DNA of 64,000 nt, from the NCBI GenBank assembly GCA_011033025.1, contig WFMF01000013.1, forward strand, positions 186,001-250,000, written 5' to 3'. Under the pieces are notes generated by a model, which was not told the origin of the DNA, did no database searches, and saw only the letters and a program-made list of their open reading frames with translations. This stretch comes from Beroe forskalii. Lineage: Eukaryota; Ctenophora; Nuda; Beroida; Beroidae. Made by a program: the position numbers and the translations under genes. Positions 2,810 to 59,028 of the stretch are shown here, piece by piece. Numbering within the stretch: position 1 is the first letter of the stretch; every line of letters starts with the position of its first letter.

Positions 2810-3185
2810 AAAGCCCCCTTTTCAAGCGGGCGGTAGCACAGGTAAAAAAATTAACGCCCAATTATGAAATTGGCACCGTTTTAAGGAAACTTGAACGCAT
2901 AATTACAGCTTGAACGCGAAAACAACCTGCTATTCGCGTTCATTTCCTAATCGTGCGTACATTTCTATAAACTTGTGCGCCTCACTAATGTTATGAACGC
3001 ATTTCTGTCAGACACCTTTTGAAAATGAACGCACAGATATGAAGATGTTCGCAGGAGGAATTTGGAGAGAGTTAGTTTAGAAACGTACGCGTCTTTACAT
3101 GCAGTGAACGCATGTATTTATAGAAATGAACGCATGGTTACTAGGTTTGGTCGCAGGAGGAATTTGGTGAAATGTTTAACTTGAA
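2810..3185 (+). repeat. GAACGCATG repeat family, left (single-unit) copy
   Basis: About 370 bp, nearly identical to the reverse complement of 24,490-25,075. It begins in TTCAAGCGGGCGGTAGCAC and carries repeated GAACGCA motifs with TTGAACGCATAATTAC and GTTCGCAGGAGGAATTTGG segments. This copy has one full 99-bp unit plus a partial one, where the partner has three. Non-coding; looks like a dispersed element with variable internal tandem units. Confidence 0.85.
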
Positions 3186-21244: not shown

Positions 21245-22312
21245 TTAACCAGCAAACCTATCAGATAGCATGTTTCTAACCTCCTCTCCAGCAAATACGA
21301 AGTTGGAACCAGGTCGATACTCAACGTAATCATCATTCTGTGATATAGCCTTGACAGCATCCTCATCATCATTATCTTCTTCCATATCTCCGAAATGCGG
21401 CTGATTGTACTCAGTGCATAAGTTGTGAAGGACAGCACATGCTACTATTATATCAGGAACCCTGTCGTATCTGCATCGTAACTTCCGTGACAAACATGGC
21501 CATCTCCTCTTCAGAACACCGATACAACGTTCAATAGTACAACGTGCTTTGCACAGAGCTCGATTGAACCGGCCCCTCTGACGTGAGTTGGGAGGATACG
21601 GATACGGAATCATTAGGTAAGGACTCAGAGGATAACCAGAGTCTCCAAGTAGCATACCTTCTATACGAGCTTCCTCAAACTCTACGCAGATAGTTGAATT
21701 GTTCCAAATACGTGAATCATGCGTACTCCCCGGCCAACCAGATACAATGTTCATTATCTTCAAGTTCTCATTACAAAACAACTTGTACGTTGAAGGAAAA
21801 AAAAGCCTTTCCTACAACGAAATATTTCGGCATAACTCCCTCCCGGACTTTGTATTGGTATATGAGTACCGTCAATGATCCCGGATATTCCGGAAAGCCC
21901 ACAGTATTCTGCAAAAAATTTATGCGTACTTTCAAGGTTGTCTGGAAAACATATGACTTCATTTGAAAGGGAAGCTATTGCACCAGTGAGGATTGGCATA
22001 TATTTGGAAACAGTTGATTGGTGTAGTTTAAGAATGTCACCGGCAACAACTTGAAAGGGAACCAGTTCCAAAGAACCTTAATGCCAATGAAAGCTGCTGC
22101 ACTGAATTGAGTGGCCGATTTGTCCCCTTCGTGAAACGTTTCAGTTTTGGTTCAACGCGAGCAAGAATGGCTGCAAATCCACTCTTATTGACTCTATACC
22201 TCGTAAAAAATTCTACATCATCATATTCGTGGAGTGGGTTCAAGCGATCTTTGAGTGGTCGTTGGATACGAGGACCCCCCTGTAAATCCATCAACTCATC
22301 AAGTTCATCCAT
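21245..22312 (-). pseudogene. Harbinger transposase (DDE superfamily 4), two frameshifts
   Basis: Start MDELDELMDL at 22,312. The helix-turn-helix region (LSLALRFFGTGS, then LHQSTVSKY) is cut by a frameshift near 22,065. The catalytic triad is visible: first Asp in GIIDGTHIPI, second Asp in PGSTHDSRIW, Glu in CTIERCIGVLKRRW. A second frameshift sits in an A8 run at about 21,797-21,804. The C-terminus ends DRFAG then stop at 21,245. Intact length would be about 350 residues, normal for the family. The residues needed for catalysis are present, so the copy may be young or simply mis-sequenced. Confidence 0.9.
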
Positions 22313-25655: not shown

Positions 25656-28600
25656 GATATCGAAGGCTGGAGGAGCTGCAGTTCTGGTTGGTACTTCTTC
25701 CTCCTCCTCCCCCACGTCTTGTAGCGTTCTCTTCCGAGACTTGTCTCCCGCAGCAATGTACTGATCCACAGGCATGTTCTCTGATGCTGAGAAGGGATTG
25801 TGATGGATAAATTGTTTTTGGAATCCTAGCAGCTTCTTAGTTTAGAGTTTTTAACATAATAAAGGGAAAAGGACTCCTTTTAAGATAAATTCTTGTTTAA
25901 TATCTTTTAAATTTGAGAGGTTGAGAGGGAGATGCGATTAACTTTGAACTAAAGTGAGGTTTTCTAAAATATTGAAATAGTAAAAAGAGATTTCGAAAAG
26001 TTGTAACAATTACCTGCCATCTTCTCGAGCATGACATCCAGGGAAGAAGGACACTTCTCTGCTATAACCTTTATCAGCTTGTCAACGTGCACGAAGGGAC
26101 CCTGGGTACAGGGGTAAATTTAGGAGACTATAGATTAAGGAAAAATATACAATAAAAGTTGTAAATTCAGGAAAAATATAGCGCACAAAAAAAGGAAAAT
26201 GGATAGCGTGTGGACTGTGAGCCGTGAGGCAACTAGTCTCTCCTTCGATCACTAAATAATCCTACAAACATCGGCAGAAATCAGTGACGACGATACTTCA
26301 CAAAATTTCATACCTGGAAGCAATGAGGAGGTGGCATGTTGCCTAATTTCATACCTGGAAGCAGTGAGGGGGTGGCATGTTGGTGAGAGCTTCAGCTGCA
26401 GCAGCAGGGACAGGGTACCCAAATATACGGTTACTTCTCATGCTTGAGGGAGGGAATATTGTTACAATTACATAATACTGTAACCTCCAGCAATTACAGC
26501 AAACACATGACGTAAACCACGTTAAAACGAGTGGTCTCTGGAAGATAATTTGAAACTATCTGTGTGCTTAATTTCGCCACCAGCACGAAAAGACGAAACT
26601 CTCAAACAAACCAAATGATTTTATAGGTTACAATGGAAGGTACTCACTAGAGGATGGAAGAGGAGAGAAAGGTACCATGTGGGAGAAGTCAGGTCGAGCA
26701 ACCCCTCCCGTTTGTTTAGGTTGCTGTTCTCGGGGGTTATTCTTTGGGTTTAGGAGGGGGTTCCGAGAATGAGGCGAGTCTTGTTCTACCTGTGATAGGA
26801 GGGTTTAGGAAGGGTTCAAAAGAGGGTTCAGAAGGGCCAGGGGTTAAATTTACCTCAATACCTATGACTTAGAGAATTCAATACCTATAATTTACCTCAA
26901 TACCTATGACTTAGAGAATTCAATACCTATAATTTACCTCAATACCTATGACTTAGAGAATTCAACCCAGCTCACGCCATAACCAAATCATATAGTGAAC
27001 TGTACCTGGTAGTCCATAGCTCTGAGTTCTTGCACTGAACAGGGGTACAGGTCTAGGTACTTGTATCTGTCCACTAGCAGGGAGGTTTCTTTTAGCTTAC
27101 ACTCCTGAAGAGGAAGAGGTTTACAAAATATGGAATATTAACAAAGACGGAATTTTTGAGACAGCTTCAAAGGGTTACAAATTATAGAATACATTTCACA
27201 AAAAGGCTTTATTTTTGTGCATCTTAGAAATTTTTGTTCCACATAAATATAACTCGTAAGGTAGTAAATTCCGTACGTTCTCGAAGACAGCAGATCTTCT
27301 CTTCTCCACTTTGATAAGGGACGCCAGATCCCCCACGTTACTCTCGAATGAGAGGAACTCGGACCAGATAGGCCAGCTGGGTTCCTTCTCGTTAGAGGTA
27401 AGCACTCGCTCGAAAAGGACACGGGTATTGTTGTCATCTGCGAATAGATGAGACGTTTTCAAACTTTTAAAAATAAAATGTTTAATGTACGAAAATTGAC
27501 TGCATTACAGTCGCAGTCTAAACTCTAAGCAACTGACAATTAATCTAAAAACGGCTAGAAATAAGTTATTTTTCTGTAAGCAGCAAAAGAAAGTACGTGC
27601 TATTGTTCTAGAATTTGTAATTCGATTGTATTGATGTATAAAATAGTTTCTTTAAAACAATTGTTCTAGAAGCTTGAGCACAAATAGCCACATTGGTGTT
27701 CATTTTGAAAACTGAACCACTCATAACCCACCGTTCTGATGCGACAGATGATTGAGGTACTTCAAAATGAAGGGCACATTGGTGGGGAACCTCTGAAAAT
27801 ATGTCACTTTTATCTACTTTGAATAAGAATTTTTGGATAGAACTGAATTTTCTATCGATCGACATTGGTTTGAGTACGATTTCTAACTGAAATATTGATT
27901 TCAAGTTCAGTCAAATTTAGAAATCGTCGACTGAGTGCAAAAAAAGCTGAGTGCAAAACAATCCTATCTCCAACTTTTGTCTACGGCCACTCTGGAGGCC
28001 CCTCCACCCTTTGGAATCGATTCCATACTCAAATATGTCATTTTAGGCCTAAAAATTGAAGTTAAAAAATATCGTAAATCCATTGCCAAATTTTGGTGAG
28101 TGAAATACAATCCTATGGTACCTTAGGATCCCTGTTCACCATAATCTGCAAAAATAACTTAGTTTATTGTGGAGTTAGGATACCAGAATTGATGAATTAG
28201 TATCCTATCTCCATTGACATGAATGAAATAATTGATAGCGCTATTGTAATACAGTGTTACAAGTATCCTATCTCCGATAATTCTTTATATGAGTATGTGG
28301 CACTCTTGGTACATATACCTTTCCCGTTCAACGAGATATACCTGCATGTAGTGTGTAACAACAATATTATCTACATGATACCTTGGCAAAATAAATGCCA
28401 ATACTTGGTTTGTATTTGTAATTCACCTTGCCTGTAGTCACACATACAAAGTCGGTGACCTAAAAAATGAATTAACTGATATATAATAGCGGTGCATAGA
28501 TCTGTTAGCCACATATATACGCAATCGAGATATGACTGAAAGTAAGGGGAGATAGCTCAATTGGTAGAGCACCTAACCGGCAATCAGGAGGTTGTGGGTT

Positions 28601-31600
28601 CAAGCCCCATTCGCCTTGCACATTTTTCAGATCACCGAGTTTGTTTGTTTGACTATTATAGGCAGGATGAATTACAAATATCGTATCTTTGATACAGTAA
28701 TACTTCAAGAGTTCAAGCTTTGGGTGGGTATATCCTCACAAGATGGTCTGAAGCTCATCCTCATAAAGTTATAAACTCTCTTATCATATTCAAAACCATT
28801 TATTTTCAAAGCATTAATAACATTGGCGCATTATAGCAATCCACCATTTACGTCATCTTTTAGTCTTTTGTAGTGCGTAGGAATGTTTGGTGACGTCACA
28901 TGGCCGGCAGATTACACGTTGGTACAGTTATTTGATGTAAAATGTTCACCGTGACACTGCATACACAAATCTTCTGTGCCACATGACCACTTGTTGATTG
29001 CTATGCAATGATTTTACCACACAGCACAAATTCAAGCAGATACTCAGATATGTGATACAGAAAGTCACCAAAACATCATGAACAGGCTGAATGGAAAGTG
29101 AACCCATAGCACAGAGATCCTCCCCCTTGCTCAAATCCACCATGAACCGTATTAATAAGACTGCCCTACCCTCAAAGAGTGGGCTTCTCTTCGACAAGAG
29201 GAAAGTCAAAGTGATCATTCTTGTCAGATGAGTCCTGAGAGAAATACAACATAAAATGATTGCAGAAAGAAGAATTGGCTGGTAACTTCAAGTGCCCACA
29301 CTCTTCAATCAGATGATACTCATCCTTCATGCTCATCTCATAATATCTTATTTATATAAAGTTTAGTATGAATGTGATTCATCGTAATGAGGGATTTCAA
29401 ACTTCATATTAAAGTCAGAAGACAGATTCGATCTTCGTGCCTATGTACTCTGTACATCTTCCTCAACATAAGGATGCTGAACTTATCATCCCAGGAGCCT
29501 TCCATTCTCTCGACTTGGATCCCTTCTAAGGCTATAATAAAGTACCTGGAGAGGCCGATAGATCAGTCTATCGGTTTTTGATTGTTGTCAATAGACCCAC
29601 AGGAGAACGTGCTTCCCGTCACAAATCTGGAGCTATATCCTTATGTCGACAGATTAGACACAGGACTTAAAAGTGACCTGCACTACCATTGTATTGTATT
29701 ACATTGTATTGGTCCCTTTCCCGAGGAAGGGTTTCCTGATGGGAAACGTTGACACAGGAGCCATAGGACACCATTTAAAGGAACAAGAGCGAAGGCAAGG
29801 ATGCCTCTAGTACCCTCTCGTGCCTGGAGCTTGATGAGAGCAGCATTGAAGTGCACTGACTTGGTTAACTCAATGGTAATCCAGGTGTTAGGCTTGATAG
29901 AGTATAGACAGATAGGTCCTTTACTGGTGCACAATACAGGTTGAGTCAACTACCAACTTCTGTGAAATTTTTAGCAATGCCTTTGTCATTTCCTGATGTT
30001 GTAGGGCAGTTGGGCACTCAAACTTTGCAATCTATGCCTAACTTACTGTCAGCCGTGTATGTATGCAGTCATCCATGATCCACAGAATTAATTGATTTTA
30101 TTAACTATTTACCATCTTATTTTATTACATGTCAGCTTGACAAGTAATAAGGTGGTATCCTGTATTCTTGTAGGGATTTGCTGACGCTGACCAATATCAA
30201 ACACCCACCATCAGTGCTATCAAATTACCAGTTGACCAAGGCCAGTTTTTGTAATTAGAGGTGCCCACTGTCCAAAGAAAGGGCTATAAGGAAAGGGTGG
30301 TATTGGCGATGAAAATTCGTGATAAGTGTAGGAAAAGTTATAACAGATAGAGGGACAAGGAGAAAGATTTTAAAGAATTAATAAGGGCCGAGGTAAGAGA
30401 TTTGGGATTGGAAAAATAAAGGATATAAGCCTAGTGCCTACCTAGACCTTTCAATATTTCACCTTAAATTTTGAAAAAATGAATTAATACCAAGCCTAAG
30501 CCCTCCAGCTGAGCAGTTTCTTGTCAATAATATCATATGAATTTATCAAAGTGCCATCATGAATAGAAGTTAGAACCATGATAGCAACTGTTATGGAAGA
30601 ACTACTGTATTGGAGATAGGATACATGTAATACTGTATTTTAATAGCGTTTCTCGATTATTTCATTGATGTCAATGGAGATAGGATATTTATTTATCATT
30701 TCTGGTATCCTAACTCCAGGTAAACAAAAACTATCTATCCTATGTCCTTTTTGGAAAAAACAAATCTCGATTTCTCTCGTGTTGGTGACGTTAGCAGAGT
30801 AAAACCAATTTGTTCTCAAGAGTGTGTACATAATTTTACAGGATCAACAATTCACTGACTGTTTGAAACCAAGGGAAATCAAAGAAACAGTTTTTGTTGA
30901 ATATCTCGAAAACTAATGACCCATGGAGATAGGATAGTTGGATATAAGCTTTTTTTGCAATAGGCCGGCGAAATGAATTCTGTAAGTCATCAGCAGATAT
31001 GTACGATGTATAGTGTACAGTGTATATTCACCTTCAATCCGATCTCGAATATTTTCAGGGCAATGTCTCTAGACTGAAAAGGAAAGGTGTTAGGAAGTTT
31101 TAGTGGTGATTATGCCCAACCTTTGTCAAGTTCTGAGCTATCTTATAGCGGGTTCCTTATTTCAATTGAAAAACTTCCTTGCATATTTGGGCATACATCT
31201 TACTATATGAGTGGTAGCAACTAGTATGTTCTAGTATAGCCATGTTACAATTGTTTTCATACTCACGGCGGAGCTGTTACCATATACCACCCTGGTTACC
31301 ATGAACAAATCATCTTGTGGTTCTGCTGAAACCATCCACTCAGGACACAATTCAGAAAATAAGTTCATATTCATTTATACATGCTCAAAATACCAATACA
31401 GAAAATAGTCTATTTTGTAGCCTAGAGTTGGATCATGTTACTTGGATTGGACCGATAGAAGAATGAGAGTTTATTTAGATGATAAGCGCTGACTAGTAGC
31501 TCGGATAAAGTTGGAACTCCCGCATGAAGAGATGAGAGCCTCAAACGGATTTGGTAAGAATAAACCGGATTTGGTGAAAATGAACCTCTATCCTTGAAAT

Positions 31601-47743: not shown

Positions 47744-50553
47744 ATGAGCAAGCCAGACGGATCTATCAGAGTGTGTGGGGATTACAAGGCTACATTGAAT
47801 CCTGCTCTTGATACGAAAGTTTATCCGCTGCCTACTATTGAGGAGTGTTTTGCTGAGATGGTCGGAGGTCAACTATTCACAAAGATCGACATAAAGGCAG
47901 CATACAATAGTTTGCGACTAAGACAAGTGATCAGTGTTTAACTACATTAAACACACACTTGGGTTTACTGAAGTGGACCAGATTACCATTTGGAATTAAC
48001 TCTGCCGGAGCACAGTTCCAGTGTACGATTGATGAGGTGTTGCTGGGAGTTAACCAGACCGTTGTCGCGTTGATGACATTCTTATCACTGGAAGGAGTGA
48101 GGAAGAGCACATGGCTAACGTTAGAGAAGTGGTGACAGGTTAGAGAAAGCTGGGTTCAGATGCAGGAAGGACAAGACTACGTTCATGGCATCGTCAGTGA
48201 TTTACCTGGGTCACGAGGTTTCTGCTCAAGGAATTAAGCCAGTGTCTAGCAAAGTTGAAACCCTCATCAAAGTTGATTATTCATAGATAACCGAGAAAAG
48301 CTGATCACATTTCTCGGAGCAGTACAATACTACGCAAGATATCTGCCCAATCTTGCTACGGTCATTGCACCACTCAATCACCTTCGTTCGGCTCAGGTTG
48401 AGTGGGTGTTTGGAAAGAAGGAGAAACATGCCTTCAATGAGCTGAAAAGGATGCTGACGTCTGGTCAGATCTTGACGTTCTACAACCCTGATTGGCCGTT
48501 GAAGATTGATTGCGACGCAAGTTCTGTTGGGTTGGGAGGAGTTCTATCTCACATGTGTCCTGGACGGTGAAGAAAGACCCATAGAGTTCATCAGTAGAAC
48601 CCTAACAGAGACTGAAAGACGGTATTCGCAGTTAGACAGGGAAGCACTAGCTATCATCTGGGGTCTGAAGAGATTTCACAAGACATCTTCGCTAGACCAT
48701 TTTCATCTGGTTACTGACAACGAACCACTTTATCACATCTTCAACCCTCACAAGGGAGTTCCTGAAATGGTCATCAGTCGTTTACAGCGGTGGGCGTTGA
48801 TTCTCAGTTGTTACAATTACACCATAGCTTACAGACCGACCAGTAAGCATGCCAACGCAGATGTATGTTCCCGTTTTCCACTGCCACACAGTGTCAAGGA
48901 GGAGTCCTGTGAGTCGGAGTTGTTGGACTGTGGCAGTGTAAGCGAATGTGAGTGTTCAGTGTTTGCTACATACATCGGTGAGGATAAACCGCTGCTTAAC
49001 AGTGTTTTGATAGCTAAACTGTCGAGAACAGACCCTGTCATATCAAAGGTCATGTACCTTGTTCAGGAAGGTGGATTGAAAGATCATCAATCGCCAAGAA
49101 GGCGAAGTGTCAAAGACCGGCTACTGTCAGGAATGAGGCAGAGTCGGGGTGAATCATCCAAAGGTAAGAGTGTAGTCGCCGAGAAGGCGAATTGTCAAAG
49201 ACCGGCTACTGTTAAGAATAAGGCAGAGCTGGGTGAATCATCTGATAAAGACAAGCTTTCCCCATATCTCAGTAGAAGAGAAGAGTTAACTGTGGATTCT
49301 GGGTGTTTGATGGGGAACTGTGTAATCATCCCTGAGAGGATGAGAAGCGACGTGCTGAGTCTGTTACATAGCACGCACATGGGGGAGCAGTTCGATGAAG
49401 AACATGGCAAGGAGATACGTGTGGTGGCCAGGGCTAGATAGCGACATCGAGAGTGTGGCTAAACACTGCTCATCATGCCAACTCAGTCAGCCATATCCCA
49501 AAGGATCATTGCCACATCCGTGGGGTGTTCCAGAGCACCCATGGGACCGGATTCATCTTGATTTTGCTGGGCCGTTCGCAGGTTGTATGTGGTTGATAGT
49601 GGTCTGCGCATATTCTAAGTGGCTTGAAGTGGAGAATATGAAACAGAATACAACTGCGACAAACTTGATCAAGTAGTTACGAGAGATATTCGACGCTTTG
49701 GGTTACCTGAGTTTTAGTGAGTGACAATGGACCACAGTTGTCTCGTTCACACGAATTCAAGGCGTTTCTGGAAAGGAATGGAATCCGGTACATACCCATA
49801 CCAGCATACCACCCATCATCCAACGGACAAGCAGAAGTCATGGTGGGTAAGTTCAAACAAGCTATGAAGAAGATGAGTGCCACAAGCAAAGACATCGATC
49901 ACAGTGTATCAAGTTGGTTATTCCAGTACAGGAACACGCCTCATTCTACCACTGGATATGAGCCCTCAGTACTCATGTTCGGTAGGCGATCCAGGACAAC
50001 ATTGAGCCTGTTGAACCCTTTATCCAGCAACACGAAGCATCAGACCAAGGTCATGGATCAGTTCGTCAAAGCGGAGCAGAAAGGATCACGGACTTTCGAA
50101 GTCGGAGATCAGGTGTACTTCCGAGATGTACACAACCAGAAGTGGGTTAAAGGTGTTGTCAGAAGCACCGAGGGATCGAAGGTCTTGGGCATTGAGTCAG
50201 AGGAACAACTGATGCTAAGGAAGCATGTGGATCACGTAGTGTCTCGACCCACTACATCGGATCAACCTGAGGTACCTGCTAAGGAGTCTGGGGAGGTTGT
50301 ACTTGATGGTGGTGAACCGAGAAAACCCGTTGAGCACAAGCATAATGCATGCCTATCCCGTAATATTCCAAGTAACAGTGAGCCCGACCATAATGCACGC
50401 CTTAATGATAATGATAGTTTGGGACTTGTACCTAATAATCAAACACCAGCTGAAAGTTCAGCTTGTTATCAACCTAGCACACTAGTTAGTGAGCGTCCCA
50501 AACGTACAGTTAAGGAACCTGACCGGTTGAGCTACAAAAAGCTTGGGGGATAG
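47744..50553 (+). pseudogene. Ty3/Gypsy retrotransposon pol (RT, RNase H, integrase), degenerate
   Basis: Reverse transcriptase begins at [10 protein letters not shown] and shows [11 protein letters not shown] (first Asp) at 47,875, WTRLPFGI at 47,975 and VDDIL near 48,070 in a shifted frame. RNase H follows (IDCDASSVGLGG, SRTLTETERRYSQLDREALA, VTDNEPL) in 48,500-48,890. Integrase has an HHCC-type zinc region (HCSSCQL at 49,465) and a D,D,E core: HLDFAGPF (49,555), VSDNGPQ (49,715), NGQAE (49,820). HSTTGYEPSVLMFGR and a basic C-terminus end at 50,553. There are at least five frame breaks. gag and protease are absent, so it cannot be autonomous. Confidence 0.9.
49091..49260 (+). repeat. 85-bp tandem duplication in the Gypsy RNase H-integrase linker
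   Basis: TCGCCAAGAAGGCGAA at 49,091 recurs at 49,176, and GTCAAAGACCGGCTACTG and GAATCATC recur with the same 85-bp offset. As 85 is not a multiple of three, the two copies are read in different frames within one uninterrupted ORF. Confidence 0.9.
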
Positions 50554-51480: not shown

Positions 51481-53140
51481 GAAATTTCACTGATGTGTCG
51501 TTGTCGGTGATTCATATGATTCTGTCGTTGAGCTGTTGAGCCTACAAACAGGAACTGGTCGAGTCAAGCCGAATCAAGCCGAAACGAGCGGAACAAACCA
51601 CCCCGAACCAACCCAAAAACTTCCCCAAATGTAGCCGAAATAATCCGAAACGAGCCAAAACAAGCGAATCAACCCGAGATAACATCCAAATCGGGTTGAT
51701 CAGCATGTTATGGTTTGTTTCGGCCACGGGGAGGTTTTTGGATTGGTTCGGGGTGGTTTCTGATTGTTACGGCTTGATTTGGATGGTTCCTACATGTAGT
51801 AATTCGACGATTATTCTCTGTAGAGGCCCTAGAGAGGTCATGGTCCTCTGTGATGGAAAGATTAAGAAAGATTATACCCCTCCCATGCTTGTTTTAGCGA
51901 CCGTGTAAGTTTGGTTATACGGTCTCCACTGAATTACAGTGCAAAAAAGCTTAAAATGCAATTTGATTTTATAAAGGAGCACTCAAAAATCTACTTAAGC
52001 GTTGAATCCGGACGAGGGTCGTCAGACCCGAGTGGGAAGAAATACTGTTGTTTGGTCAGAGAATAGTAGGTATAATCCGGTTCCATGATCTCAGCTGTGA
52101 CCGTATACCTTCGATAATGAACTCGGCACGCCTCGTCCATTATCCAACTTACACAGTCTCGGCTGTCGCCTCGACCATGTAAGTTGCGGTATACGGTCAC
52201 CACTTCGACATGTAACCGCTTAGTATTGGTTCAGAATGCCGTGCTAATCACTTATAATAAAGCCCATCCAACGGAAGAACGCAGTAATGAGCTCTGTACT
52301 AACAGACAGTAACCAAGCAATCACGGAATCAAGCATTATTTTGTTTCCACTTTCATTTTACTTCCATTTACTTTTGCCTGTCGATGTTCTTCCACTATAC
52401 AAGTATATAGGCTATATCATGAGGAGTTAATTTCCGAAGGAGAATAGGCTACAGTAAGACACCATGTATTATATATTGACACTCAATAGAGGATTGTTGG
52501 ATTGCATATTTAACTATATGATATTGACACTCAATAGAGGGATTGTTGGATTGCATATTTAACTATGGAATTATAATTGATGAACTCATCCAAAGCTATA
52601 CAGCTTAACAGTTGAAAGCAAATGTGTCAATTTTGTCCAATTTTGTCCAAAGTTAACCTCATTTTTGAGAATTGAACAAAACCATTGGACAAAATTGACA
52701 AAAATTGACAAAATTGACTTGGCCTCTGCCCCTATATCATTGTATCACAAGCTCCCCAGCTAGGTGAATGCTCGTGGCACCAATCGATGCACAATTAAGT
52801 CACCACGACAGATACAGTGGTCGTAAATTGATGTATTGGCCATGAAGTTCCATTGACAAATTTAGAAATTTTGGAACAAGAAAATATGCAGTTCACACGG
52901 TTTGATAGCCAACTTTCAGCCGGGCCGAATTTTTTCTATTTAAATTACAGAAAGTCAGGTTTATTGTTTGGGTTTATCTTAGATTTTTAAGGGGAAAAAA
53001 ATCCCAATTAAATTTGGGGGGTGATGATCAAAATTTCCTTTTCCCAAGGTAGTTTTTTTTAAATTTGTAAATATATTTTTTATTTCCGGGGCCCTGGTTT
53101 TCATGTTGAAAAAGGATAAACCAAAGGGGGGCCCAATTAC
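51481..53140. other. Non-coding stretch with small inverted and direct repeats
   Basis: 51,590-51,765 is a fold-back: CCACCCCGAACCAACCC against GGATTGGTTCGGGGTGG. GTGACCGTATACC (52,098) pairs with GGTATACGGTCAC (52,188). A 48-bp tandem duplication (ATATTGACACTCAATAGAGG) lies at 52,473-52,566. From 52,980 on, homopolymer-rich sequence looks like poor base calls. Confidence 0.5.
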
Positions 53141-53348
53141 CTAATAAAGGCATAACCCAAATTTTTTGGTTTTTTCTATCACATCTTGATAGAAAGAGGT
53201 GTAACCAGGCATATTATAAACAGTGCTTTCAGCTTCACTAGTGTTGGTCTCTGCTATGCCTATGACAGAGAATTTGAGTTCTATACGCTGTAACTGAGTA
53301 ACAAATTCGTCAAAGTTGCTCTTATTACCGTCAATATTTTGGAAGAGC
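53141..53348 (-). mobile_element. LINE endonuclease fragment
   Basis: Minus-strand frame with the start of an EEP endonuclease: LLFQNIDGNKSNFDEF, VIGIAETNTS, YNMPGYTSFYQD. The NxxG..N and ET motifs mark the N-terminal EEP strands of a non-LTR retrotransposon of a different family from the one at 1-2,363. It is cut by low-quality sequence on one side and by the minisatellite on the other. Confidence 0.75.
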
Positions 53349-56300
53349 AAGCTGTGTTGGGGCAAGTATTTTTACAGGAAACTCACTGTGTTGGGGCAGG
53401 TATTTTTACAGGAAACTCACTGTGTTTGGGCAGGTATTTTACAGGAAACTCACTAGGGCAGGTATTTTACAGGAAACTCTACTGTGTTGGGGCAGGTATT
53501 TTTTACAGGAAACTCACTGTGTTGGGGCAGGTATTTTTACAGGAAACTCACTGTGTTGGGGCAGGTATTTTTGTTGAGAAACTTTGCTAGAAACTCACTG
53601 TTGGGGCAGGTATTTTACAGGAAACTCACTGTGTTGGGGGCAGGTATTTCTACAGTGAAACTCACTGTGTTGGGGCAGGTATTTTTACAGGAAACTCCAG
53701 GTATTTTTACAGGAAACTGTGTTGGGGGCAGGTATTTTACAGGAAACTCACTGTGTTGGGGCAGGTATTTTTACAGGAAACTCACTGTGTTTGGGCAGGT
53801 ATTTTACAGGAAACTCACTGTGTTGGGGCAGGTATTTTTACAGGAAACTCAAATTGTGTTGGGGCAGGTATTTTTACAGGAAACTCACTGTGTTTGGGGC
53901 GGAGCTTTACAGGAAACTCACTGTGTTAGGGCAGGTATTTTTACAGGAAACTCACTGTGTTGGGCAGGTATTTTTACAGGAAACTCCACTGTGTTGGGGC
54001 AGGTATTTTACAGGAAACTCACTGTGTTGGGGTAGGTATTTTTACAGGAAACTCACTGTGTTGGGGGCAGGTATTTTACAGGAAACTCCACTGTGTTGGG
54101 GCATGTATTTTACAGGAAACTCACTGTGTTGGGGGCAGGTATTTTTACGGAAACTCACTGTGTTGGGGCAGGTATTTTACAGGAAACTCACTGTGTTGGG
54201 GCAGGTATTTTTACAGGAAACTCACTGTAAGTTGGGGCAGGTATTTTTACAGGAAACTCACTGTGTTTGGGGCAGGTATTTTTACAGGAAACTCACTGTG
54301 TTGGGGCAGTATTTTACAGGAAACTCACCAGTTGGGGCAGGTATTTTTACAGGAAACTCCACTGTGTTGGGGCAGTATTTTTACAGGAAACTCACTGTGT
54401 TGGGGCAGTATTTTTACAGGAAACTCACTGTGTTGGGGCAGGTATTTTTACAGGAAACTCACTGTGTTGGGGCAGGTATTTTTACAGGAAACTCACTGTG
54501 TTGGGGCAGGTATTTTTACAGGAAACTCACTGTGTTGGGGCAGGTATTTTACGGAAACTCACTGTGTTAGCAGGTATTTTACAGAAACCCAATTGTGTTG
54601 GGGCAGGTATTTTTACAGGAAACTCACTGTGTTGGGGCAGGTATTTTTACAGGAAACTCACTGTGTTTGGGCAGGTATTTTACAGGAAACTCACTGTGTT
54701 AGGGCAGGTATTTTTACAGGAAACTCACTGTGTTGGGGCAGGTATTTTTACAGGAAACTCACTGTGTTTGGGGCAGGTATTTTACAGGAAACTCACTGTG
54801 TTAGCAGGTATTTTTACAGGAAACTCACTGTGTTGGGGCAGGTATTTTTACAGGAAACTCACTGTGTTGGGGCAGGTTTTTACAGGAAACTCACTGTGTT
54901 GGGGCAGGTATTTTTACAGGAAACTCACTGTGTTGGGGCAGGTATTTTTACAGGAAACTCACTGTGTTGGGGCAGGTATTTTTACAGGAAACTCACTGTG
55001 TTGGGGCAGGTATTTTTACAGGAAACTCACTGTGTTGGGGCAGGTATTTTTACAGGAAACTCACTGTGTTGGGGCAGGTATTTTTACAGGAAACTCACTG
55101 TGTTGGGGCAGGTATTTTACAGGAAACTCACTGTGTTGGGGCGGTATTTTTACAGGAAACTCACTGTGTTGGGGCAGGTATTTTTACAGGAAACTCACTG
55201 TGTTGGGGGCAGGTATTTTAACATGAAAAACTCACTGTGTTGGGGCAGGTATTTTTACAGGAAACTCACTGTGTTGGGGCAGGTATTTTTACAGGAAACT
55301 CACTGTGTTGGGGCAGGTATTTTTTACAGGAAACTCACTGTGTTGGGGCAGGTATTTTTACAGGAAACTCTACCAGTTGGGGGCAGGCATTTTTAGGAAA
55401 CTCACTGTGTTGGGGCAGGTATTTCTACAGGAAACTCACTGTGTTGGGGCAGGTATTTTTACAGGAAACTCACTGTGTTGGGGCATGTATTTTTACAGGA
55501 AACTCACTGTGTTGGGGCAGGTATTTTTACAGGAAACTCACTGTGTTAGGGTAGGTATTTTTACAGGAAACTCACTGTGTTGGGGAGGTATTTTTACAGG
55601 AAACTCACTGTGTTGGGGCAGGTATTTTTACAGGAAACTCACTGTGTTGGGGCAGGTATTTTTACAGGAAACTCACTGTGTTGGGGCAGGTATTTTTACA
55701 GGAAACTCACTGTGTTGGGGCAGGTATTTTTACAGGAAACTCACTGTGTTAGCAGGCTACAGGAAACTCACTGTGTTGGGGGCAGGTATTTTACAGGAAA
55801 CTCACTGTGTTAGGGCAGGTATTTTTACAGGAAACTCACTGTGTTGGGGCAGGTATTTTTACAGGAAACTCACTGTGTTGGGGCAGGTATTTTTACAGGA
55901 AACTCACTGTGTTGGGGCAGGTATTTTTACAGGAAACTCACTGTGTTGGGGCAGGTATTTTTACAGGAAACTCACTGTGTTGGGGCAGGTATTTTTACAG
56001 GAAACTCACCTGTGTTGGGGCAGGTATTTTTACAGGAAACTCACTGTGTTGGGGCAGGTATTTTACAGGAAACTCACTGTGTTGGGGCAGGTATTTTACA
56101 GGAAACTCACTGTGTTGGGGCAGGTATTTTTACAGGAAACTCACTGTGTTGGGGCAGGTATTTTACAGGAAACTCACTGTGTTGGGGCAGGTATTTTACA
56201 GGAAACTCACTGTGTTGGGGGCAGGTATTTTTACAGGAAACTCACTGTGTTGGGGCAGGTATTTTTACAGGAAACTCACTGTGTTGGGGCAGGTATTTTT

Positions 56301-58934
56301 ACAGGAAACTCACTGTGTTTGGGCAGGTATTTTTACAGGAAACTCACTGTGTTGGGGCAGGTATTTTAACAGGAAACTCACTGTGTTGGGGCAGGTATTT
56401 TTTACAGGAAACTCACTGTGTTGGGGCAGGTATTTTTACAGGAAACTCACTGTGTTGGGGCAGGTATTTTTACAGGAAACTCACTGTGTTGGGGCAGGTA
56501 TTTTTACAGGAAACTCACTGTGTTGGGGCAGGTATTTTTACAGGAAACTCACTGTGTTGGGGCAGGTATTTTTACAGGAAACTCACTGTGTTGGGGCAGG
56601 TATTTTTACAGGAAACTCACTGTGTTGGGGCAGGTATTTTACAGGAAACTCACTGTGTTGGGGCAGGTATTTTTACAGGAAACTCACTGTGTTGGGGCAG
56701 GTATTTTTACAGGAAACTCACTGTGTTGGGGCAGGTATTTTACAGGAAACTCACTGTGTTGGGGCAGGTATTTTTACAGGAAACTCACTGTGTTGGGGCA
56801 GGTATTTTTTACAGGAAACTCACTGTGTTGGGGCAGGTATTTTTACAGGAAACTCACTGTGTTGGGGCAGGTATTTTTACAGGAAACTCACTGTGTTGGG
56901 GCAGGTATTTTTACAGGAAACTCACTGTGTTGGGGCAGGTATTTTTACAGGAAACTCACTGTGTTGGGGCAGGTAATTTTTACAGGAAACTCACTGTGTT
57001 GGGGCAGGTATTTTTTACAGGAAACTCACTGTGTTGGGGCAGGTATTTTACAGGAAACTCACTGTGTTGGGGCAGGTATTTTTTACAGGAAACTCACTGT
57101 GTTGGGGCAGGTATTTTTACAGGAAACTCACTGTGTTGGGGCAGGTATTTTTGCTATGAAACTCACTGTGTTGGGGCAGGTATTTTTACAGGAAACTCAC
57201 TGTGTTGGGGCAGGTATTTTTACAGGAAACTCACTGTGTTGGGGCAGGTATTTTTACAGGAAACTCACTGTGTTGGGGCAGGTATTTTACATGAAACTCA
57301 CTGTGTTGGGGCAGGTATTTTACAGGAAACTCACTGTGTTGGGGCAGGTATTTTTACAGGAAACTCACTGTGTTGGGGCAGGTATTTTACGAAACTCACT
57401 GTGTTGGGGCAGGTATTTTTACAGGAAACTCACTGTGTTGGGGCAGGTATTTTTACCAGGAAACTCACTGTGTTGGGGCAGGTATTTTACAGGAAACTCA
57501 CTGTGTTGGGGCAGGTATTTTTACAGGAAACTCACTGTGTTGGGGCAGGTATTTTACAGGAAACTCACTGTGTTGGGGCAGGTATTTTACAGGAAACTCA
57601 CTGTGTTGGGGCAGGTATTTTTACAGGAAACTCACTGTGTTGGGGCAGGTATTTTTACAGGAAACTCACTGTGTTGGGGCAGGTATTTTACAGGAAACTC
57701 ACTGTGTTGGGGCAGGTATTTTTACAGGAAACTCACTGTGTTGGGGCAGGTATTTTTTACAGGAAACTCACTGTGTTGGGGCAGGTATTTTTACAGGAAA
57801 CTCACTGTGTTGGGGCAGGTATTTTACAGGAAACTCACTGTGTTGGGGCAGGTATTTTTACAGGAAACTCACTGTGTTGGGGGCAGGTATTTTTACAGGA
57901 AACTCACTGTGTTGGGGCAGGTATTTTACAGGAAACTCACTGTGTTGGGGCAGGTATTTTTACAGGAAACTCACTGTGTTGGGGCAGGTATTTTTACAGG
58001 AAACTCACTGTGTTGGGGCAGGTATTTTTACAGGAAACTCACTGTGTTGGGGGCACTCACTGTGTTGGGGCAGGTATTTTTACAGGAAACTCACTGTGTT
58101 GGGGCAGGTATTTTTACAGGAAACTCACTGTGTTGGGGCAGGTATTTTTACAGGAAACTCACTGTGTTGGGGCAGGTATTTTTACAGGAAACTCACTGTG
58201 TTGGGGCAGGTATTTTTACAGGAAACTCACTGTGTTGGGGCAGGTATTTTACAGGAAACTCACTGTGTTGGGGCAGGTATTTTTACAGGAAACTCACTGT
58301 GTTGGGGCAGGTATTTTTACAGGAAACTCACTGTGTTGGGGCAGGTATTTTTACAGGAAACTCACTGTGTTGGGGCAGGTATTTTTACAGGAAACTCACT
58401 GTGTTGGGGCAGGTATTTTTACAGGAAACTCACTGTGTTGGGGCAGGTATTTTTACAGGAAACTCACTGTGTTGGGGCAGGTATTTTACAGGAAACTCAC
58501 TGTGTTGGGGCAGGTATTTTTACAGGAAACTCACTGTGTTGGGGCAGGTATTTTTACAGGAAACTCACTGTGTTGGGGCAGGTATTTTTACAGGAAACTC
58601 ACTGTGTTGGGGCAGGTATTTTTACAGGAAACTCACTGTGTTGGGGCAGGTATTTTTACAGGAAACTCACTGTGTTGGGGCAGGTATTTTTACAGGAAAC
58701 TCACTGTGTTAGGGCAGGTATTTTTACAGGAAACTCACTGTGTTGGGGCAGGTATTTTTACAGGAAACTCACTGTGTTGGGGCAGGTATTTTACAGGAAA
58801 CTCACTGTGTTGGGGCAGGTATTTTTACAGGAAACTCACTGTGTTGGGGCAGGTATTTTTACAGGAAACTCACTGTGTTGGGGCAGGTATTTTTACAGGA
58901 AACTCACTGTGTTGGGGCAGGTATTTTTACAGGA
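53349..58934 (-). repeat. 34-bp minisatellite (about 160 copies) made of a CPT1 exon end and its splice donor
   Basis: Unit on the plus strand: TTGGGGCAGGTATTTTTACA then GGAAACTCACTGTG, 34 bp, with a common 33-bp variant (one T fewer) and rarer 32- or 35-bp forms. The right two thirds are very homogeneous; the left third (53,349-54,900) has many point and length variants. On the minus strand each unit reads TCCTGTAAAAATACC, TGCCCCAACACA, then GTGAGT, which is exactly the end of the adjoining CPT1 exon and its 5' splice site. The plus strand of the unit has no stop in any frame, so very long overlapping ORFs arise by chance. Confidence 0.95.
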
Positions 58935-59028
58935 GACGTGGAAGAAGATGTTGTCCTCCCCGGCTATGATGTAGGACACACCGTAACCGTCGTCAGCTAC
59001 AGGACCGAACCCACCTCCAGCGGAAATC
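58908..59028 (-). CDS. CPT1: Carnitine palmitoyltransferase 1, single exon
   Basis: CPT1 transfers long-chain acyl groups from CoA to carnitine at the mitochondrial outer membrane. The 121-bp minus-strand exon has acceptor CTCTGCAG and encodes [17 protein letters not shown], then [15 protein letters not shown], ending before donor GTGAGT at 58,907-58,902. This segment is the highly conserved C-terminal part of the carnitine acyltransferase fold; CPT1 members have [16 protein letters not shown] almost unchanged, while CPT2 and CrAT differ. The exon's last 27 bases are the first unit of the minisatellite. I see neither the preceding exon to 64,000 nor the following one before 53,349, so it may be one exon of a gene with large introns or an orphan fragment. 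Confidence 0.85.

Follow-up and report, generated by a model that had tools for sequence, protein, structure and literature searches.

Repeats built on splice junctions have already been described, so that what stands out in the case reported here is the phylum and the copy number. The minisatellite of human IFI6 (6-16, G1P3), reportedly described by Turri et al. in 1995, has a 12-bp unit present in 26 copies. Our subject is a minisatellite at a splice junction of CPT1, lying in a stretch of 64,000 nucleotides from the ctenophore Beroe forskalii (GenBank assembly GCA_011033025.1, contig WFMF01000013.1, positions 186,001 to 250,000 of the forward strand), which is referred to below as the window. 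Its closest described relatives are the mirage minisatellites of amphioxus, which occur in Adh3, the globins BflGb6 and BflGb9, TnC and, imperfectly, PGBD5; regular splicing is said there to be undisturbed, the lengths are unstable, and in BflGb6 the copy number differs between two haplotypes (PMC3087553, PMC3902484). The IFI6 minisatellite is described as supplying multiple splice donors (PMC4526556, PMC2572611), and an account of human segmental duplications places minisatellites with units of ~30 bp at exon-intron boundaries (PMC2812944).

The CPT1 array shares with the amphioxus mirages a unit that spans an exon-intron boundary (27 exon and 7 intron bases here) and a copied splice signal, present in 155 of 167 aligned pieces of our array and in many of the amphioxus units, where both donor-side and acceptor-side cases occur. 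It differs in that their host is a cephalochordate, in copy number (6 and 3 in BflGb6 against ~164) and in having a second array elsewhere in the assembly. Splicing of IFI6 makes use of donors in downstream units, whereas here the first 34-base shift would reach a stop codon; the human boundary repeats average ~4 copies and are connected with new introns and with alternative transcripts. Neither the repeats of PMC3045353 nor the intron minisatellites of earthworm metallothionein (PMC12783039) are mirage cases. For ctenophore minisatellites no report was found among the papers listed, most of them judged by title, a weak absence as the search covered open-licence PMC papers only.

The array and its probable origin in CPT1

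Tandem Repeats Finder (TRF) gave the array a period of 34, 163.8 copies, a 91% match and a score of 8116 (Table 1), in keeping with the ~160 tandem 5' splice sites noted in an initial annotation made from the letters alone. Read on the minus strand, CPT1 exon E17 ends in TCCTGTAAAAATACCTGCCCCAACACA and is followed by GTGAGTT; these last 27 exon bases and GTGAGTT together equal the repeat unit, as the annotation had also stated. The E17 peptide matches Carn_acyltransf (PF00755, E 1e-8). Further CPT1 exons lie upstream of E17 on the same strand of the contig, beyond the window, as detected by tblastn with a human CPT1A query. For a joined CPT1 query of 510 residues the best named matches were the CPT1 proteins of Bolinopsis microptera and Mnemiopsis leidyi, which cover 57% of it at 75% identity. 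No other named match among the 120 listed of 3328 exceeded 52%, and on this similarity alone the genome is recognisable as a ctenophore's. The C-terminal end of E17 aligns without gaps to CPT1 of ctenophore, gastropod, oyster, annelid, hemichordate and spider, and resembles HVSCKNSCPTT of oyster, HISCKNSCPTT of snail, HVSSKKACPNT of Bolinopsis and HVSCKNAFPTT of protein P0123. As oyster and snail CPT1 share this end, the exon is older than the array. At the level of sequence these comparisons establish that the 27 exonic bases are old CPT1 coding sequence, and they support growth of the array out of the junction, the expansion that the initial annotation had proposed.

The array was divided by wrap-around alignment, read on the minus strand outward from the exon, into 167 pieces, among them one scrap of 3 bases and the copy that belongs to the exon itself. 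Half of these (84 of 167) are identical to the consensus TCCTGTAAAAATACCTGCCCCAACACAGTGAGTT over its full length, ACAGTGAGT is present in 152, and the donor hexamer GTGAGT is kept in 155. The junction at the exon-side end is clean, with 0.2 differences per unit across the first 20 pieces. When the array was split into eighths from its sense 5' end, omitting the final 7 pieces, the differences per unit were 0.2, 1.1, 0.85, 0.3, 0.9, 1.05, 1.45 and 2.9, a trend that rises away from the exon without being monotonic. A search of the 216-Mb genome (1134 contigs) for the 34-bp unit with at most 3 mismatches returned 100 forward and 107 reverse matches, which is exactly the content of this array, on the contig that carries the window (C170), and of a second one on contig C154 of the same assembly. 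The reversed pattern gave 0 matches genome-wide, and with the unit thus confined to two arrays a chance origin is excluded.

The initial annotation had every intact unit retaining a strong GTGAGT donor. The hexamer is indeed widespread, being absent from only 12 pieces, two of them end scraps, but the donor is not a strong one: its pairing energy with the 5' end of U1 is -5.7 kcal/mol, and only two of the 14 CPT1 donors compared pair more weakly. The predicted cost of choosing a later donor was borne out by translation, as use of the second donor would give ...CPNTVSFL followed by a stop.

Table 1. Positions of the array, its flanks and other features (window coordinates unless a contig is named)
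Feature	Position	Strand	Basis or remark
34-bp minisatellite, ~164 copies	53352..58934	(-)	sense unit TCCTGTAAAAATACCTGCCCCAACACA followed by GTGAGTT
CPT1 exon E17	58908..59028	(-)	acceptor CTCTGCAG, donor GTGAGT
27 exon bases recurring in each intact unit	58908..58934	(-)	sequence and array alignment
First (exon-proximal) 5' splice site GTGAGT	58902..58907	(-)	sole donor whose use would avoid VSFL and stop
Sequence abutting far end of array	53150..53347	(-)	open frame, 66 codons
Homopolymer-rich stretch	52898..53160	.	noisy by eye
Dispersed element, ~442 bp	C154:135426-135867		directly before second array
RNase H and integrase-like retroelement frames	48503-50553		RT_RNaseH 7.9e-21; rve_3 below cut-off
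tRNA gene	28546-28618		Rfam 53.2 bits; ARAGORN tRNA-Ala, anticodon ggc
HARBI1-like DDE transposase	21245-21811		PF13359, 2.2e-28

A second array and the edges of both

The second array (C154:135892-140895, 146.9 copies) has the same 34-bp unit in the same sense orientation, and the CPT1 exon is absent there. The initial annotation had remarked neither on this array, nor on the phylum, nor on the kind being a known one. With 146.9 copies against 163.8, the second array may or may not represent the locus of the first. A T/A variant at position 21 is found in 12 of 167 pieces on C170 and 0 of 151 on C154 (Fisher p 0.0005), so that the arrays differ as DNA. On C154 the differences per unit in successive eighths, again from the sense 5' end and without the final 7 pieces, were 1.67, 1.17, 0.67, 1.0, 1.44, 1.06, 0.56 and 0.22, tending to fall, non-monotonically, away from a dispersed element that precedes the array; among the omitted pieces are two that carry 11 and 14 differences. 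Copies of this element that are 90-95% identical occur on four other contigs, with both ends shared within 2 bases. An F-box/LRR gene lying before it breaks off at C154:135424, whereas a 98.6% identical copy on contig C714 stays open across all 2100 bases examined.

Several array edges look poorly assembled by eye. Beyond the far end of the window array, the open frame that abuts it had no Pfam match above cut-off; it was considered as a retroelement, a resemblance seen by eye only and not confirmed. The neighbouring homopolymer-rich stretch may be assembly junk, on the look of its sequence, with the far end of the array misjoined, and for 52898-53350 no copy elsewhere in the genome was seen among the matches listed (40 of 161 candidates scored).

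CPT1 as assembled

Exons were placed with Mnemiopsis CPT1 (P0122) as query. The matches run along the minus strand of C170:290310-244905, and outside this contig there are one isolated exon on C370 and, on C278, a relative. Exon matches that stop short of intron sequence share 69-96% identity with the Mnemiopsis protein and are free of stops. Three stretches were not found in the assembly by six-frame search at E<=0.001: P0122 residues 350-433, residues 607 to ~640, and the terminal exon. With the threshold relaxed to E<=10, one search for missing sequence yielded nothing but the relative on C278, at 62% across 34 residues, and a match on C333 (22%, E 0.23), and another yielded only E17 itself. 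A terminal-exon pattern allowing at most 2 mismatches gave 122 + 134 matches against 86 + 77 for its reversed control, and the one match examined of the 100 listed was not CPT1 beyond the pattern; a second such pattern gave 40 matches against 58 in the control, with none of the 10 examined continuing as CPT1. Nor was a CPT1 continuation seen in a profile scan of 254 kb for missing CPT1 sequence, and the terminal exon was not found in C154:140900-176000.

By our reading of the sequence the end of E8 is in phase 1 but the start of E11 in phase 0, so that in-frame joining of the two is impossible, and E13 continues into noise-like sequence with no donor there. Two of the three missing stretches adjoin the two longest arrays of the 144-kb region around the gene. 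As assembled, then, CPT1 is incomplete, which may reflect either a damaged gene or a fault of the assembly.

A 48-bp array of 117.7 copies and 5.6 kb (C170:254289-259861, or 68289-73861 on the window scale) abuts CPT1 exon E14 (AFVRAVVDRQP) and sits where ~34 CPT1 residues are missing. The unit, CYFVRAL..., faintly resembles the exon's AFVRAV, and is too diverged for us to claim it as a mirage.

Repeats at other CPT1 junctions

Two acceptor junctions of the gene also recur. At E3, beyond the window (C170:288118-288683; 102118-102683 on the window scale), an acceptor-side mirage has a 39-bp unit made of CAG and 36 exon bases (LHRLDPVTRTLL), in 14.5 copies by TRF, and as 15 extra copies in the junction test described below. 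A 13-residue protein repeat is not claimed for it, the array not being open throughout in one frame. The E8 acceptor and exon start occur twice, as one extra copy in a 55-bp repeat.

Enrichment of repeats at junctions was measured by counting extra copies of 30-mers within 8 kb, with at most 6 mismatches, at 28 placed CPT1 junctions and at 3000 random positions of the 144 kb; the set lacks the donors of E1 and E13 and the acceptor of E14, which had no placement, and a few junction centres are off by 1-2 bases. No enrichment was found on this measure: an extra copy accompanied 3 of the 28 junctions and 17.8% of the random positions, and at least 10 copies accompanied 2 of 28 and 10.6%, respectively. 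Tandem repeats make up 21% of the 144 kb, 15% of the window and 37% of 80 kb of C154, the last picked because it carries the second array; for the genome of Hormiphora californensis the published figure is 13% (PMC8527503). Given the lack of junction enrichment, neutral expansion is a sufficient account, the region being simply rich in repeats.

Interpretation

We consider it highly probable that the feature is a mirage-type minisatellite in a ctenophore, its unit being the 3' end of a CPT1 exon with the first 7 intron bases, and that the array is intronic and nearly neutral. It would have started as a 34-bp tandem duplication at the junction, with subsequent amplification by slippage or unequal exchange. 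The exon-proximal donor would be the one used, so that the array would stay within the intron and remain nearly neutral while that donor works, and use of any later donor would yield an mRNA with a stop after four extra codons. Expansion of the mirage kind is favoured by the exon end shared with oyster and snail, by the clean, nearly error-free units on the exon side, by the second boundary repeat in CPT1, by the general wealth of tandem repeats in a region whose junctions are not enriched for them, by the differing copy numbers of another CPT1 array on C170 and C370, and by the architecture shared with the amphioxus mirages. A dedicated regulatory role is unneeded, and nothing beyond a tolerated expansion is supported. 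Several points weigh on the other side. The Mnemiopsis exon end, HVSSKKASSHT, is a poorer match to the end of E17; the last unit at the far end stops at CACAG, where simple tandem duplication predicts an end after GTGAGTT; the exonless array on C154 is not accounted for by slippage alone; the enrichment test covers one gene and one 144-kb region; and the choice of the first donor by the spliceosome is something we infer from the DNA.

The initial annotation had suggested that the array might tune CPT1 splicing or titrate U1 snRNP, and for neither did we find evidence, in stretches that are 15-37% repeats and a gene whose junctions are not enriched for them. Competing donors could slow or divert splicing, donor choice setting the share of early-stop mRNA, and both the widely retained hexamer and the stop after VSFL would fit this. 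The hexamer is, however, expected to persist in any array as young and homogenised as one with half its pieces identical over full length, and the unit's donor is weak. We therefore regard regulation as quite unlikely, though precedents can be named: two downstream repeat units serve as donors in the IFI6 account (PMC4526556), and a C. elegans survey associates a minisatellite within an intron with several splicing decisions (PMC4039745), whereas the amphioxus mirages are said to leave splicing undisturbed (PMC3087553). Titration of U1 would have ~155 donor hexamers per pre-mRNA to draw on, but with at most two arrays in the assembly and a low affinity for U1 it is hardly credible. Few nuclear RNAs are as abundant as U1, and nascent CPT1 transcripts could scarcely deplete it. 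An array of spliced-leader (SL) RNA genes would likewise present repeated 5' splice sites. SL RNA genes are far longer than 34 bp, and the CPT1 junction accounts for every base of the unit; an Rfam scan of the window at the gathering threshold matched only the tRNA and no SL family. We accordingly rejected SL genes, whose chances here are negligible even though ctenophores trans-splice and spliced leaders are reported to be common in their mRNAs (PMC8527503).

For the relation of the two arrays the alternatives are a single giant array now broken, a second allele, or a genuine second locus. The assembler may have split one array of more than 10 kb, leaving the exon-side end on C170 and the other end on C154, with wrong inner joints to the 52.9-53.3 kb stretch and to the dispersed element and truncated F-box gene, respectively. 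The common unit and sense orientation, the opposed divergence profiles and the F-box/LRR gene that is cut on C154 while its C714 copy reads on all lend this some plausibility; the position-21 variant, which sets the parts apart, the two divergent pieces that keep the C154 end from being clean to its edge, and the failure to find the terminal CPT1 exon in the sequence beyond it count against, and we hold it to be a tentative option that falls somewhat short of even chances. It is doubtful that the mirage array left CPT1 and was re-inserted or translocated as ~147 units beside the dispersed element, but if it did, mirages can spread ready-made donors and coding fragments through a genome. That CPT1 is a dying gene, with the array a part of its decay, a reading that the initial annotation had raised in its mention of a dead gene, also appears unlikely. 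Three coding stretches were not found, the phases of E8 and E11 are incompatible, and the CPT1 exons are on one contig save the lone one on C370, all as decay would have it; yet the exon matches are open and similar to Mnemiopsis CPT1, the longest arrays adjoin two of the losses at places where the assembly looks noisy, and a 20-residue exon easily escapes a six-frame search.

Ctenophores are a very early branch of animals. If the mirage-type origin that we favour is correct, a case of ~164 copies in this phylum would show that splice-junction minisatellites arise in distant animal lineages, and would serve as a natural experiment on donor choice by a spliceosome that is presented with ~155 near-identical donors. 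Such arrays may also break assemblies inside genes.

Other repeats and features

Retroelement frames, a tRNA gene and a transposase elsewhere in the window are listed in Table 1. C154:106005-164831 contains long tracts in which related 24-bp units, GGAACACTGGTGCA-like, run in both directions and meet head to head near 107898, 150900 and 163654. C370:470329-480860 and C170:284113-266458 share colinear pieces of CPT1 intron and exon E4 that are 78-94% identical. Another 39-bp array in a CPT1 intron has 19 copies on C370 and 13 on C170, a difference that is the behaviour of unstable minisatellites.

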